Of a stretch of 64,000 nt of DNA, positions 8,641 through 47,290 are shown one piece after another. This stretch comes from Loxodes magnus. Its lineage: Eukaryota > Ciliophora > Karyorelictea > Loxodida > Loxodidae. The notes beneath the pieces were generated by a model. The model had not been told where the DNA came from and searched no databases. It was given only the letters and a program-made list of their open reading frames with translations. The stretch is taken from contig CAMPDV010001709.1 in NCBI GenBank assembly GCA_946699065.1, positions 34,919 through 98,918 on the forward strand, read 5' to 3'. Position 1 is the first letter of the stretch. Every line of letters starts with the position of its first letter. Made by a program: the position numbers and the translations under genes.

Positions 8641-8721
<81 letters not shown>
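8132..8721. other. AT-rich spacer with an (AT)n microsatellite
   Basis: No gene seen. It contains a perfect AT dinucleotide run of about 75 bp at 8646-8719, ending at the ATG of the next gag-like ORF. Confidence 0.6.
8646..8719. repeat. (AT)n microsatellite
   Basis: Uninterrupted TA/AT dinucleotides directly abutting the start of gag-like copy 2 (ATG at 8722). Non-LTR elements can end in simple repeats, so this could mark an element junction. Confidence 0.95.
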
Positions 8722-14010: not shown

Positions 14011-15002
14011 AATATTCTATTTTCATTTTTTTTATTATTTTTAAACATTTAAAAACATTAATTTAAATATATAACTATTACACATCCTTAAATTATTAAA
14101 CGCAAAATCTTTAAAATAAATAATATTTAATAACTTTAAAATTATAAAATTATAAAATTAAAATTAAAACATTCTTTACTTATAAATTATTATTCTTACC
14201 TTCCTTCTTTTATAAACAAACATTTAACTTTTATTATCTAAAAAACAATCTACTCATTAAAAAAAAATGCTTTAACAACTTTATACTCTTTTCACTCTTT
14301 ATAATATTTATATTCCCTAAATAGTATTTATACTCTAAATACTCTAAATAGTATTTATAACCAACTTTTATTTACTAACCATACACACACTAAATAGTAT
14401 TTATAACCAACTTTATTTAAACTTATAAACAATCTTTCATATATAAATATATTAACTCATAAACATATTAACATATATATAAATATATACATATATAATG
14501 ATATACATATATAAATGTATACATATATATATATATATTAATATAGAAGAAGAAATACCTTCAAACTCATAAAAATATTTACATGTATATAAATATAAAC
14601 ATATAAATATATATAGTTATTAATTTAATTTTTTTAATTAATAAGAGTTATTATTAAGTATATCAGTTGTTCACTCTCATACTTTGTGACCAGACTCATC
14701 CATCACTACAATAATGAAGTTCTTACAACCTTTATTCACATTAACAAACTCACCCCCTTATTTCACAAAACATACACTCTATTACATTATCTTTAAACCA
14801 TTTGTACCAACTTATATTAATTAAAACTTACCATCTATTTAATTAAAACGTAAAAAAACAACCTTACATACTAATTCTTACTCCAATTATTACATTCTAA
14901 AATAAATATATCTAAACTAAAAATACCTTTTCCTAATATTGATTAAAATATATATTACTATACGAAACTTATAAACATATGTGTCAAATTGTATATTACC
15001 CC

Positions 15003-15344
15003 CTGATCAGTAAATACTTACGTTCTATAAGTTAAGAATATTCAAATAACTTACCTAAGTTAAGAATATTAAAATGCTTACATGCTATAAGTTAAGAATA
15101 TTAAAATAACTTACATCCTGTAAGTTAAGAATATTAAAATACTTACATGCTATAAGTTAAGAATATTAAAATAACTTACGATCTATAAGTTAAGAATATT
15201 AAAATAACTTACTTCCTATAAGTTAAGAATATTAAAAAAACTTACATTCTATAAGTTAAGAATATTAAAATGCTTACTTGCTATAAGTTAAGAAATATTA
15301 AAATGCTTACTCTCTATAAGTTAAGAAATATTAAAATAACTTAC
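15003..15344 (-). repeat. Tandem array of intron-like units with 3-nt spacers, array A
   Basis: On the minus strand, eleven consecutive units each start GTAAG, contain TTTTAATATT and CTTAAC, and end TTATAG, TACAG or TTAG. Units are 27-31 nt except the last, a 19-nt unit GTAAGTATTTACTGATCAG. In order the spacers are AGA, CAA, AAT, GAA, ATC, CAT, GAT, CAT, none, AAC. Every spacer is exactly three bases or absent. The array starts 80 nt after the end of the RING/ubiquitin-like ORF on the same strand. It could be serial introns with 3-nt exons, or a minisatellite that happens to look like introns. Confidence 0.85.
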
Positions 15345-15424
15345 CTATTTTAAAAATAAAAATTTAGAAGTGCAACGTACATCCTTTGATTAGATTATTT
15401 ACCATCTACATATATTATAAAAAA

Positions 15425-16663
15425 TTAACTCCATTCCATTTATAACTATTCCCCATCCATTATCTTTGAAGATTGCATTGTCTATTTTTTCTCTAACTCA
15501 TTGCCATTCTTATAGATAGCCAATGACCAGTAGTATAATCTTGTTTATTTTTCTATCATGTAGTATAGCTATTCGATAGTAGTGTCTTGCTTAACCTCAA
15601 GCTTCACAGATTTATTATTCGGAGATACTATCGATATTTAGATTTCTTTATTCGTGACCTTTGTCGATTAAGATTAGGAAACTTACTATGGCTTAACTTT
15701 TTATACCTCTTAAGGAGTAACTGGCTTCAACATATTCTATTACTTAACCTCAGATAATAATTATTAGCACTAATGATATTATGTCGCAAGCACCTATTTC
15801 TCGTTCAATAGATCCTAAACCTATTTCTCAATACTCATCTTCTAACTCTATAGATCCTATAACTACTATCCCATCTACATAATCTTTCTCTCATTGTTAC
15901 CACTAACCTAGTCAAGCTTCTTCAAAGCATCCTTAGTTACAACCAACTCATTTACTATTTATGTTCTCTCCTATTAAATATTCGAAACTTGCTAACTCAA
16001 CTACTAAATCTAAGCTAGATAATCACCGTTAACCTGACTTAATGTTTCCATCTAGACTCTCAGTCTATCCCTCTCCTCAAACACATTAACCGATACCTAG
16101 GAGATCTATTAAAAAATTTCTTAAGCTTCCTTAACTAACTTTGATACCAACTACTCCACTCTAGGATGAATACTACTTTCTTAGGTGGCTTATTAAACAT
16201 TACCCTATTTACTGATCTATAGCTACTAATACTTGAGATATCCTAACTATTAACTTAACTATCTAGCCAACTATTTTAACTCTCTCTATTTAACCAAACT
16301 ATTCCCGAAAACATATTGGTTGAGATTATTTATTAACTATTAGAGAAAGCTAGTCTGCTACTCAGACAACATTGTATATGCCAAACGGATTTTAGTCTAA
16401 TAACCTTCAAATAAAGTAATGCTACTTTGTATCCCCTTTTACTCTAAACGTTTTAACAACTGAGTATCCTCTGGTAACTAAGAAGAACGTAACTTATGGA
16501 TCTATTAACAAGATTAGTCGAAACATCTGATACTCAAGTTTCTCTAATACTAATCAGATGCACAAGTGAGACAAATATTGTGCTAGCATGGAAGGACCAT
16601 TGGAACTTTCCTCTATCCATCGAAATCTCCATTACAAGATTGACATTTAACAACCTAGGACAT
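15425..16663 (-). CDS. RING finger / coiled-coil / ubiquitin-like domain protein, paralog 1
   Basis: ATG at 16663 to TAA 15425-15427 is 413 codons with no frameshift and no TGA. Residues ~7-55 form a RING finger: CQSC, then PCQHNICLTC, then RCFDQSC. The middle (~130-300) is a Gln/Leu/Glu coiled coil. The last ~75 residues resemble ubiquitin in order: EIQISIVSP, VKLEVKQDTTIEQL, SLAIYKNGNEL, IMDGEQLQMEW. A RING with a ubiquitin-like tail suggests an E3 ligase or scaffold (inference). The plus-strand S/T/P-rich open frame here is its antisense shadow. No in-frame TGA follows for a long way, so either TAA is the stop or the reading continues into the intron-like array. Confidence 0.8.
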
Positions 16664-16684
16664 TTCTTTTATTATTATTTTTAG

Positions 16685-17200
16685 AAAATTTCACCCTTAA
16701 AGCAAGAAACACTTACTAGACAAAAATTAGCACAATTACCAGAATTAAACAGAAATAATAATAAAATATTAAACTTACTATCTTATTTTATGAATTATAT
16801 CTATTTTTATAAATATAAACATATAATAAATTATTAATATTAAACAATTAAAATATTATTATAATATTATTTAAATATTATTTTTAATTTTAAATTAATT
16901 TTTAAGCTCACTAAATTAAAAAAAATTTAATATTTTAAATTGGTTTATAAGAAAAAAATTAATAAATTGAAATTTCTAAAGCACTAAAGTTTATAAAAAG
17001 AGCATTAAAAAAATGTAGTTTTAATGCAAAACCTTAAAATGAGTAAGAGAAAAAGGTAAAAGAAATATAATATCATAAATTAAAAATAAATTTTACTCAA
17101 AGATGAGATTTAAACCTCTTAATTTTTTATTTTTCCGTTATTTATTTTATTTTAATTAAAATTATTTTTAGATAATTATTTTTTTTTAATTAATTTCAAT
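16685..17200. other. AT-rich upstream region of the RING gene
   Basis: No gene recognised. It probably holds the promoter of the minus-strand RING gene, but no motif can be named. Confidence 0.4.
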
Positions 17201-44368: not shown

Positions 44369-44760
44369 TTTTACATATAAATATAAATATTATGTAATTA
44401 ATAAGAGTTATTATTAAGTATATCAGTTGTTCACTCTCACTTTTTGAAATCTGACTCCTTCATCACTACAATAATGAAATTATTACAACCTACATTCACA
44501 TTAACAAACTCACCCCCTTATTTCACAAAACATACACTCTATTACATTATCTTTAAACCATTTGTACCAACTTATATTAATTAAAACTTACCATCTATTT
44601 AATTAAAACGTAAAAAAACAAACTTACATACTAATTCTTACTCCAATTATTACATTCTAAAATAAATATATCTAAACCTAAAATACCTTTTTCTAATATT
44701 GATTAAAATATATATTACTTGAGTAAACTTATAAACATATGTCAAATTGTATATTACCAT

Positions 44761-45425
44761 CTAATCAGTAAATACTTACGTTCTATACAGTTAAGAATAT
44801 TAAAATAACTTACCTAAGTTAAGAATATTAAAATAACTTACAATCTATAAGTTAAGAATATTAAAATAACTTACCTTAGTTAAGAATATTAAAATGCTTA
44901 CATACTATAAGTTAAGAATATTTAAATGCTTACCTAAGTTAAGAATATTAAAATGCTTACTCTCTATAAGTAAATAATATTAAAATAACTTACCTAAGTT
45001 AAGAATATTAAAATAACTTACCTAAGTTAAGAATATTAAAATAACTTACCTAAGTTAAGAATATTAAAATAACTTACCTAAGTTAAGAATATTAAAATAA
45101 CTTACCTAAGTTAAGAATATTAAAATAACTTACCTAAGTTAAGAATATTAAAATAACTTACCTAAGTTAAGAATATTAAAATAACTTACCTAAGTTAAGA
45201 ATATTAAAATACTTACCTAAGTTAAGAATATTAAAATACTTACCTAAGGTAAGAATATTAAAATAACTTACCTCCTATAAGTTAAGAATATTAAAATAAC
45301 TTACCTAAGTTAAGAATATTAAAATGCTTACTTGCTATAAGTTAAGAATATTAAAATACTTACCTAAGTTAAGAATATTAAAATGACTTACCAACTATAA
45401 GTTAAGAAATATTAAAATGCCTTAC
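44761..45425 (-). repeat. Tandem array of intron-like units with 3-nt spacers, array B
   Basis: About two dozen minus-strand units of the form GTAAG...TTTTAATATT...CTTAAC...AG. Roughly ten central ones are near-identical 28-mers joined with no spacer. The other junctions carry TTG, CAA, GAG, AGA, TAT, ATT or AAC, always three bases. The final unit is again 19 nt, GTAAGTATTTACTGATTAG. The array follows the ubiquitin-like ORF of paralog 2 exactly as array A follows paralog 1. Confidence 0.85.
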
Positions 45426-45505: not shown

Positions 45506-47290
45506 TTAACTCCATCTCATTTATAACTATTCTCCATCCATTATATTTAAAGATTGCATTGTCTAGTCGTAGACTAACTCTTTGCCATTCTTAGAGATAG
45601 CCAATGACCATTCGTATAAATTTGTTTATTTTTATATCATGTCACATAGCTATCAGATTTTAGTGTCTTGCTTAACCGCAAGCTTCACAGACTTATTATT
45701 CGGAGATACTATCGATATTTAAAATTCATATTTTAATAACTTTGCTCGTAACTCATACAACTAACTCGTTAACTATTTCCTTTCCTCCATTAAAATTTAT
45801 ATCTAGTTTGACAAATTAGATATCTCCTATTTCAAACTCTCTATCTACTAACCCAACTCATGATTTAATGAAATATTATTATTATTAGCCTTAGTAACCA
45901 CATTCAACTCATTCTCTCTCTAACTATTTTACTCACTCAATCTATTGATTTAAACCCTTAAATGATCATTGTCCTCTCTCTAAAGATCAAACTCATTCTA
46001 CAACTCTCTTATCCTTTGCTCTTTCTATTAATCTTGCTTTTCATACTACTACTATTAAAATATATTCCTCTAATCCTTCTCTTAAATAACCTACAACAAC
46101 TCACTTATTTGCAATTTATATTAAACACCCTCACTCGATAAACTATTTATTTACTCACTCAAACTCTTAGACTATTCCTCTAACTTATCTTTATATCCTT
46201 ATAACTCGAAACTTTTTTACTGCAAGATAGCATTCTACTACTAGATCAAACTCTTTATTTATAATTATTGATCCTCTATTGCTTTCTAGTTACGAGATAT
46301 TTATTCCCTCTAGTCAGTCAACACCATATCCTTATCTCTTATAACCTAAAGCAACTTTTATATTTATTCTTCACTTTCCTTTTGTACACTCTCATATGAT
46401 TTAGCCTACAACTATAACTCCTTTCATAAATGCTATATAGTTCTCTAAAAAGATTATTTCTATTCTCTAACTCGCAACTCCTATAGTGGCTGAATCTCCT
46501 TTATCATTTTCTCAAAGACCTAAACTTCCATATTCTTTAAACTAAGAATAGCCTTATACTTAGAATATTCTTACTCATCCTTTATTCACTTCTCTTACAA
46601 CTATACCTCCAACCTCTCTATCTCCACCTTCTTTATCTCACATTACTATATAGTAACCTATTACATTAGTCCAATACTCTCTAGTCTTTCAAATAGATTA
46701 TTTTAACCCATTTCCTACCTACACTATTCACCTTAGTCCTATACTCTTAACACCACCTCCTCACATGCTTACTCTAAACTTCTCTTGATTTTATCATAGA
46801 TCTACATTATATATTTTCTATTTAACTTATAATCCTCAGCCAACTACTTTTATCATTGACCCAAAACAGAAGAATATTGCTTCAACCTCTCCTTTATAAC
46901 ACTCAAAGTCATTTACATACGAACTTACATAATAGGAACGATCTCCTCTTGTCTAACACATTGATGATTCTTATGAGAATCCTATTAACATTTTTCACAT
47001 ATTAATGCACTGTCACTCAGACAATATAAAGCTAGAATCTCATTATGCTACTAACATATACTTAGTAAGTTTTATTTGGACTCCTCTTAAAGATGTAAAT
47101 CTAGTATTTCCAATTCTTCAATTGGTCTATCAGTGATGATGTTGTGCTTTCTACAGTTGAATATTTGCTAGAACTTATAGATGCCTTTCAAACATCTCTC
47201 ACAAAGAATACATCCACAATCCAACTTTCTAGGCTTTTTAAGCTCTTAGTTGAACTCTTCTTCACAAGCTTCACATTAAGATGCTTGCAT
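45506..47290 (-). CDS. RING / B-box / coiled-coil / ubiquitin-like domain protein, paralog 2 (TRIM-like)
   Basis: ATG 47290 to TAA 45506-45508 is 595 codons in one frame. Residues 6-50 form a RING: CEAC, then LDCGCILCERC, then CRKH. Residues ~77-109 form a B-box type 2: C-x2-H-x7-C-x7-C-x2-C-x4-H-x2-H (CQQHNEILALYC, LICEKCQQDSHKNH). A very long Gln/Glu-rich coiled coil fills ~120-500. The last ~75 residues are ubiquitin-like: FQISIVSPNNKSVKLAVKQD, SLAISKNGKEL, IMDGEQLQMRW. TGA reads as Trp at four sites, for example GQWQKQL and KIWQL. The end of the gene lies in duplication B; the RING and coiled coil are outside it and differ strongly from paralog 1. Probably an E3 ligase (inference). Confidence 0.85.

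Follow-up and report, generated by a model that had tools for sequence, protein, structure and literature searches.

The micro-exon genes (MEGs) of schistosomes are built of exons of about 6-36 nt and ordinary introns. The MEG coding region consists mostly of very small symmetrical exons, whose inclusion or skipping is neutral for the reading frame, and the encoded proteins evolve fast (PMC4350168). The same appears to hold for the gene that we describe here from a protist, the ciliate Loxodes magnus, and that we call gene A; it would work like a MEG, but it is not one. In its array the predicted exons are 3 nt long, the repeat unit is a near-identical intron of 27-31 nt plus one triplet, some junctions have zero length, two of the segmented regions (L009 and L027) hold more than 100 introns, no signal peptide was seen by eye, and the host is a ciliate and not a platyhelminth. 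The bicycle genes of aphids, a large and fast-evolving family, also resemble the present genes in having many small internal exons that are nearly all in one phase. However, that phase is phase 2 and here it is phase 1, which places our genes outside the phase-2 definition, and bicycle genes encode putative secreted effectors whereas ours encode RING/ubiquitin-like proteins; the sections of the bicycle-gene paper considered here mention neither tandem identical introns nor 3-nt exons (PMC9168663). The author of a first-pass annotation of this DNA knew of no described equivalent. Among the open-access articles listed in our literature searches, none reported near-identical introns in series with exons of one codon, and MEGs and bicycle genes are the nearest architectures known to us.

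In evolutionary behaviour the nearest systems are the zinc fingers of PRDM9 and the repeats of TAL effectors, in which near-identical units carry one or two hypervariable codons, are reshuffled by recombination, and have a constant part that is translated. Here, in contrast, the constant part is apparently spliced out and the variable triplet alone is left. Recursive splice sites, or zero-nt exons, juxtapose AG and GT and subdivide very long introns; the AG/GT arrangement likewise occurs in 231 of 828 units in our set, but these units are mostly 27-28 nt long and stand in tandem. Finally, compared with the ordinary tiny introns of L. magnus (mode 17 nt; PMC11441545), those of the arrays have greater length, are nearly the same as one another inside any one array, and are placed every 3 nt.

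The window, by which we mean the whole 64-kb stretch of DNA analysed, belongs to an assembly of 705,730,643 bases in 7843 contigs. The published L. magnus assemblies measure 706 Mbp (macronuclear) and 848 Mbp (micronuclear), and the species uses genetic code 27 (PMC11441545). In the genes studied here TAA and TAG stand for Gln and in-frame TGA occurs inside coding exons, so that both size and code agree with the macronuclear genome of this karyorelict ciliate, which is most likely what the assembly represents. Introns are not dense everywhere in that genome, since 22 of the 29 matches to the chaperonin domain (PF00118) span nearly the whole domain in one piece. Gene A lies on the minus strand and is predicted to consist of the following parts.

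15430-16663, minus strand: gene A exon 1; 1234 nt, 411 codons plus 1 base, translated without internal TGA and with TAA/TAG as Gln.
15431-15637, minus strand: ubiquitin-like domain of gene A; AlphaFold mean pLDDT 91.9, Foldseek TM 0.93 to ubiquitin.
15384-15429, minus strand: intron 1 (15429-15406, 24 nt), 3-nt exon ATG (15405-15403) and intron 2 (15402-15384, 19 nt), from segmentation and from the homologous series in divergent loci.
15345-15383, minus strand: 3-nt exon GAT (15383-15381) and a 36-nt intron, GTACGT...AATAG, that abuts the array with no exon between, from segmentation; GAN precedes the intron in paralogues.
15025-15344, minus strand: array A proper, ten units of 27-31 nt, GTAAG...CTTAAC...(TATAG, TACAG or TTAG), with the 3-nt exons AGA CAA AAT GAA ATC CAT GAT CAT and one zero-length junction at 15055/15054, from sequence and segmentation.
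15003-15024, minus strand: 3-nt exon AAC (15024-15022) and a 19-nt intron, GTAAGTATTTACTGATCAG (15021-15003), from segmentation; the intron has the size of ordinary L. magnus introns (PMC11441545).
14706-15002, minus strand: gene A tail, small exons GGG, TTTCGTATA, GAAAAG, AAT, TAT, ATG, TTG, AGT, GGG and GTT with introns of 19-33 nt between them, from tail alignment and segmentation.
14677-14705, minus strand: gene A last exon, TG ATG GAT GAG TCT GGT CAC AAA GTA TGA, ending in the stop, from segmentation and the tail stop scan.

Exon 1 runs unbroken from its start at 16663 to 15430 and, being 411 codons plus 1 base, ends in phase 1. The product of gene A is a RING/coiled-coil/ubiquitin-like protein, with the reservation that the RING match (RING_UBOX, 3.2e-4) falls under the curated Pfam cut-off and that the coiled coil was seen by eye; the Rad60-SLD match (1.2e-6) is over its cut-off. 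The protein begins MSQVVKCQSC with the RING finger, and no signal peptide was seen by eye. Protein searches, which in part covered the best 7995 candidates by shared words, returned no homologue at E 0.001. Within the genome the ubiquitin-like exon has at least 150 matches (the best 150 of 595 candidates scored). At two loci, L031 and L032 (assembly G000, C278:46600 and C902:144500), the same ubiquitin-like domain opens a different gene, the 620 nt examined showing no array, and short matches that resemble these two occur among the genome matches listed.

Eleven minus-strand GTAAG units beginning at 15344, with the spacers AGA, CAA, AAT, GAA, ATC, CAT, GAT, CAT, none and AAC, were found exactly as first described. 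Nine of the ten spacers do measure three bases, the other being zero, and CTTAAC, which had been assigned to every unit, is present in ten of the eleven and absent from the last, the 19-nt intron GTAAGTATTTACTGATCAG. The ten bodies of array A vary in length between 27 and 31 nt. TRF reports a period of 33, 65 or 131 with 86-88% matches, and the array can be called a head-to-tail minisatellite of 10-60 bp units, but that class alone leaves the hypervariable spacer of fixed length unexplained. The array had also been placed just past a gene; it lies instead inside the 3' part of gene A, the same architecture running from 15429 to 14706. Two parts of the tail follow the paralogues rather than the segmentation as computed: the 6-nt exon GAAAAG, which had been merged into an intron and was taken from the 6-nt exons of paralogues, and the last exon, which had been split at a weak donor and was read through on the paralogue pattern. 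The predicted peptide across the triplet joins is NGQTKWNPWSQRVSYRKELYVEWGL, and the predicted C-terminus is NGQTKWNPWSQRVSYRKELYVEWGLMDESGHKV, the protein ending ...KELYVEWGLMDESGHKV.

A paralogue of gene A, gene B, lies 30 kb away in the window, with these predicted parts.

45511-47290, minus strand: gene B exon 1; 1780 nt, 593 codons plus 1 base, ending in phase 1, with a B-box, a coiled coil (by eye) and a ubiquitin-like domain.
44783-45425, minus strand: array B, 22 units of the same family as array A, 15 of which abut the next without an exon; 3-nt exons TTG CAA GAG AGA TAT ATT, then AAC.
44437-44782, minus strand: gene B tail, exons AAC, ATG, TTTACTCAA, (AAAAAG), AAT, TAT, ATG, TTG, AGT, GGG and GTT plus the last exon to TGA, from segmentation and the tail stop scan.

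The predicted C-terminus of gene B is ...KKELYVEWGLMKESDFKK. Among the codons listed, exon 1 of gene B contains at least three in-frame TGA read as Trp. As regards the traits of TRIM/RBCC-like proteins, the B-box of gene B is over the Pfam cut-off (3.3e-8) and a RING was not called, gene A has the RING under the cut-off and no B-box match, and the coiled coil was judged by eye. Soon after the gene B tail, at about 44370-43600 on the minus strand, there is an open-looking stretch with Cys/His-rich motifs (by eye) that may be the ORF of an inserted retroelement.

Array A had 173 listed matches in the genome, many of which overlap one another within a shared array. The loci taken for analysis were 20 with arrays, each no longer than 10 kb, and a further 20 shorter ones from paralogues, among them L031 and L032, where the domain is in another gene; most A-type loci are linked by alignments of at least 800 nt at 93% identity or more, the cut used. 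Units were counted where four or more GTAAG donors form a chain, and 38 of the 39 sources examined gave units. The bodies of the resulting 828 units range from 21 to 38 nt, and AG stands exactly 3 nt before the next GTAAG in 594 of them and 0 nt before it in 231, so that 825/828 have the GT donor and AG acceptor of spliceosomal introns at one of these two spacings. The exceptions are two 2-nt spacers in L021 and one in L038 that is a misparsed TAA triplet. When bases were shuffled within units, AG fell at spacer 3 or 0 in 4.7%, in keeping with the earlier judgement that the arrangement is hard to explain by chance. In a scan of spacers 0-12 between neighbouring GTAAG donors, AG was rare besides 0 and 3, and the largest other count (spacer 1, 32/921 pairs) is of the kind that AGA triplets produce. 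Over the two strands of the 64-kb window, chains of at least four donors with a constant spacer of 0-9 nt occur only in arrays A and B, and zero such chains were found in reversed and complemented copies of the window.

Segmentation, whose scoring rewards splice-site-like ends and has no preference for multiples of three, led to the same rule. In 21 A-type regions, 588 of 596 internal exons were multiples of three in length, compared with 453/1540 (29%) in dinucleotide shuffles, and the divergent loci gave 301/307 as against 304/1026 in shuffles; a coding region apparently formed of tandem, very small symmetrical exons is the trait that these genes share with micro-exon genes. The 21 regions came from 25 sources (L014, L019, L024 and L025 gave none, and L028 is without its upstream end), and the divergent set comprised 13 of 14 loci, L034, whose array extends past the edge of its piece, having been omitted. 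At the most divergent loci, L042-L046, the bodies differ greatly from the array A bodies (e.g. GTAAGTTGATATTTAATGTGAAAATGAAG), and one anomalous copy, L044, has a 2-nt exon. Reported L. magnus introns have a mean of 19.3 nt and a mode of 17 nt, 93% of them being no longer than 25 nt, and lengths that are multiples of three are reported to be depleted; some introns of the tails are of this usual size (17-21 nt), whereas the array bodies measure 27-31 nt and 30-nt bodies are common among them, two points against reading them as introns (PMC11441545). At the level of sequence, the exon/intron periodicity is established by these counts.

Among the alternatives, the one that survives best holds that the array is a minisatellite within one composite intron, which would be removed whole by pairing its first donor with its last acceptor, with triplets that are never retained and flanking tail exons that are real. 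The arrays do grow in a minisatellite-like manner, as the long GAG/GAA or zero-exon runs of L009 and L027 illustrate, and 3-nt exons could readily be skipped. However, nothing would then hold 594 spacers at 3 nt while body length drifts, nor would zero-exon units be expected as the only other common class, and we consider such a composite intron unlikely.

The phase of the tail was set independently by exon 1, and the first exons of both A and B end in phase 1. With 3-nt exons in that phase, a codon takes its first base from the end of one exon and its other two from the start of the next; the one-codon exons of the first-pass annotation are thus right in length, but the codons are split between neighbouring exons. 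Read in the exon-1 phase, seven tail exons and the start of the last exon give [LI]YxEWGL at 12 of 13 loci, L038 reading KYWKWGL, and all 13 rows run to an in-frame TGA. These rows were entered by hand from paralogue alignments and segmentation, with the 2-nt exon of L044 entered as GGG. The conserved residues are encoded by synonymous codons (Leu by TTA/TTG/CTA/CTG/CTT, Arg by CGT/CGA/AGA, Glu by GAA/GAG, Trp by TGG/TGA). Over all pairs, which are not independent, single-base codon differences were synonymous and nonsynonymous in 102 and 63 cases in phase 1, 38 and 177 in phase 0, and 5 and 169 in phase 2. When bases were relabelled within tail columns, the synonymous fraction of phase 1 was reached in 175/2000 trials; the argument is therefore carried by the contrast between phases and not by that null. 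Each of the conserved tail codons straddles an intron, and their synonymous substitution and the continuity of phase, both plain in the aligned copies, are evidence that the exons are probably joined in RNA.

Of 18 aligned A-type tails, 15 come to an in-frame TGA no more than 14 codons past the final junction; an early stop is missing from L026 and L028, and no last acceptor was found in L027. In L043 the conserved Trp is encoded by TGA only a few codons ahead of the stop, in a region reported to be poor in coding TGA. The last exons of many A-type copies (L009-L023 and the window) have a second in-frame TGA soon after the first (e.g. TGA GAG TGA), which may back up the first; stops in this species depend on context.

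For the array proper, codon usage (mean log-likelihood -3.94 in phase 1, -3.88 in phase 0 and -4.37 in phase 2) gives phase 1 no advantage over phase 0, a point in favour of the composite intron, and the phase of the array therefore rests on continuity with its flanks, which exons of nearly always 3 or 0 nt preserve. Taken together, the spacing rule, the phase and the codon conservation of the tail indicate that the units behave as introns and the triplets as coding exons that split codons. We infer from this that the units are spliced and that the array triplets are included and translated: array A is very probably the middle of a coding region that is cut into 3-nt exons and spliced into a hypervariable peptide ahead of the conserved tail. 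A chain of introns with one-codon exons, as first proposed, fits the strict exon length of 3 or 0, the free intron length, the constant phase up to the stop and the conserved tail residues, and the other initial suggestion, that of recursive splice sites, is borne out to the extent that the zero spacers are AG/GT junctions resembling such sites.

The earlier contrast between near-identical bodies and freely varying triplets holds throughout the A-type arrays, and the hypervariability of the triplets is as well established as the periodicity. Among units of equal length, the 29-nt and 30-nt bodies differ by 0.023 and 0.017 per site and their triplets by 0.62 and 0.40, ratios of 27 and 23; where adjacent bodies are identical, the triplet differs in 86 of 119 pairs. 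A composite intron predicts triplets as uniform as the bodies, and this 23-27-fold difference in diversity per site is a further argument against it and for triplets that are retained as exons. Two loci that are 97% alike over 9.7 kb (L018 and L019) nevertheless have no three consecutive triplets in common and two consecutive ones at a single place, and two others on separate contigs that are 96.4% alike (L004 and L005) have the same triplets throughout the stretch compared. The L009 and L027 regions, with 105 and 124 introns respectively and mostly GAG/GAA triplets or zero-exon units, look like recent runaway amplification resembling plain minisatellite growth. A zero-exon unit could come from a 5-nt deletion where a triplet ends in AG.

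The domain upstream of the array varies as well. In 22 copies of the ubiquitin-like exon pN/pS is 1.16 overall; 18 of 69 codons exceed the chosen threshold of 0.4 nonsynonymous differences per pair, and the other 51 have means of 0.055 synonymous and 0.060 nonsynonymous differences per codon. Several of the 18 hypervariable codons (15637-15431 and paralogues) lie 3-4 residues apart on a predicted helix, as if one face were under diversifying selection. To judge by its sequences, the variability of the gene family looks like diversifying selection on a recognition protein, and from it we infer a role in recognition and an exchange of units between arrays; a higher mutation rate at the triplets could also be a source of variability.

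We suggest the following working of gene A. After the ubiquitin-like domain, spliceosomal introns of about 17-38 nt would alternate with exons that are 3, 6 or 9 nt long and all in phase 1, and the series would close with a short last exon ending in TGA; in mid-series, one intron-plus-triplet unit would have been multiplied into an array of near-identical introns. The introns would be recognised across the intron, each removal setting the next donor beside the growing exon, and splicing would be recursive at AG/GT junctions where two units adjoin with no exon. The mature RNA would then retain one triplet per unit, and the joined triplets would form a hypervariable peptide between the domain and the [LI]YxEWGL tail. 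Units could be gained, lost, skipped or exchanged between arrays, and this peptide would then change by whole residues and, because the exons are multiples of three, without frameshift.

The remaining alternatives fare worse than a composite intron. Two conserved half-sites with a fixed, free gap of 3 nt are typical of dimeric binding sites, and the array could on that ground be non-coding DNA or RNA with a bipartite protein-binding motif, TATAG-NNN-GTAAG, whose likeness to splice sites is incidental. In divergent paralogues, however, the left half-site is replaced (e.g. by AATGAAG) while AG and a GTAAG-like donor remain, 231/828 units have no gap, and the similar exons of the tail are conserved at the codon level, chiefly in one phase, and we regard a binding motif as very improbable. 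A function driven by hairpins was rejected; the commonest body folds at -4.8 kcal/mol, but two of the four commonest bodies do not fold, and there is thus no conserved structure. That the units are IESs removed in macronuclear development is suggested by the ciliate host and by a unit size near the 26-bp minimum of Paramecium IESs, but it is scarcely credible, since the assembly size equals that of the macronuclear assembly, so that the units, if the assembly is indeed macronuclear, are still present in somatic DNA and not cut out at the DNA level, the assembly's authors found no canonical IESs in L. magnus, and the unit ends are GT...AG (PMC11441545). Just as implausible, and rejected on unit lengths, is translation of the unspliced array as an 11-residue repeat of 33-nt units with TAA/TAG as Gln, because units of 27, 28, 32 and 34 nt shift the frame freely and the open frame through array A (14987-16690 under table 6) is expected of an array without TGA in the sequence shown.

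With the triplets of array A read as coding exons, a fast-evolving protein seems to have its last part spelled out in numerous 3-letter exons between tiny near-identical introns. If this is true, dozens of consecutive introns standing 3 or 0 nt apart would mark a lower limit for splicing, and every codon of a protein region would be split by an intron. The constant part of a minisatellite would be removed at the RNA level, so that through recombination single residues could be gained, dropped or replaced with the frame intact, and the biology of introns would be linked to the way hypervariable recognition proteins evolve. Three questions would also become accessible to testing, namely by what means exons below the size needed for exon definition are recognised, whether splicing at AG/GT is recursive, and how intron arrays originate. 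Genes of such a build would be easily overlooked by gene finders.

A search of the genome for three GTAAG donors joined by two AG-NNN-GTAAG junctions gave 38,924 matches, compared with 666 for the reversed pattern; among those listed, the matches form largely overlapping series and include bodies unlike those of the gene A/B family. We treat the occurrence of 3-nt exon arrays genome-wide as a lead and not as a result. To the wider proposal that Loxodes builds variable peptides residue by residue, from interchangeable intron-plus-triplet modules that are spread over the genome, recombined in DNA and then spliced, thereby providing a frame-safe diversification of a large family of recognition proteins and of other genes, we would give about an even chance. 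Arrays of AG-NNN-GTAAG with other bodies are found in assembly G000 at C10:95925-96967, C15:1387638-1388528, C4:2195290-2196802, C27:513938-514443 and C12:964526-964834, and may be other 3-nt-exon genes. Elsewhere in the window, positions 1431-2192 of the plus strand have a weak endonuclease/exonuclease/phosphatase match (9.1e-5, just under cut-off), perhaps from a LINE, and positions 8645-8719 are a perfect AT dinucleotide run of 37.5 copies.
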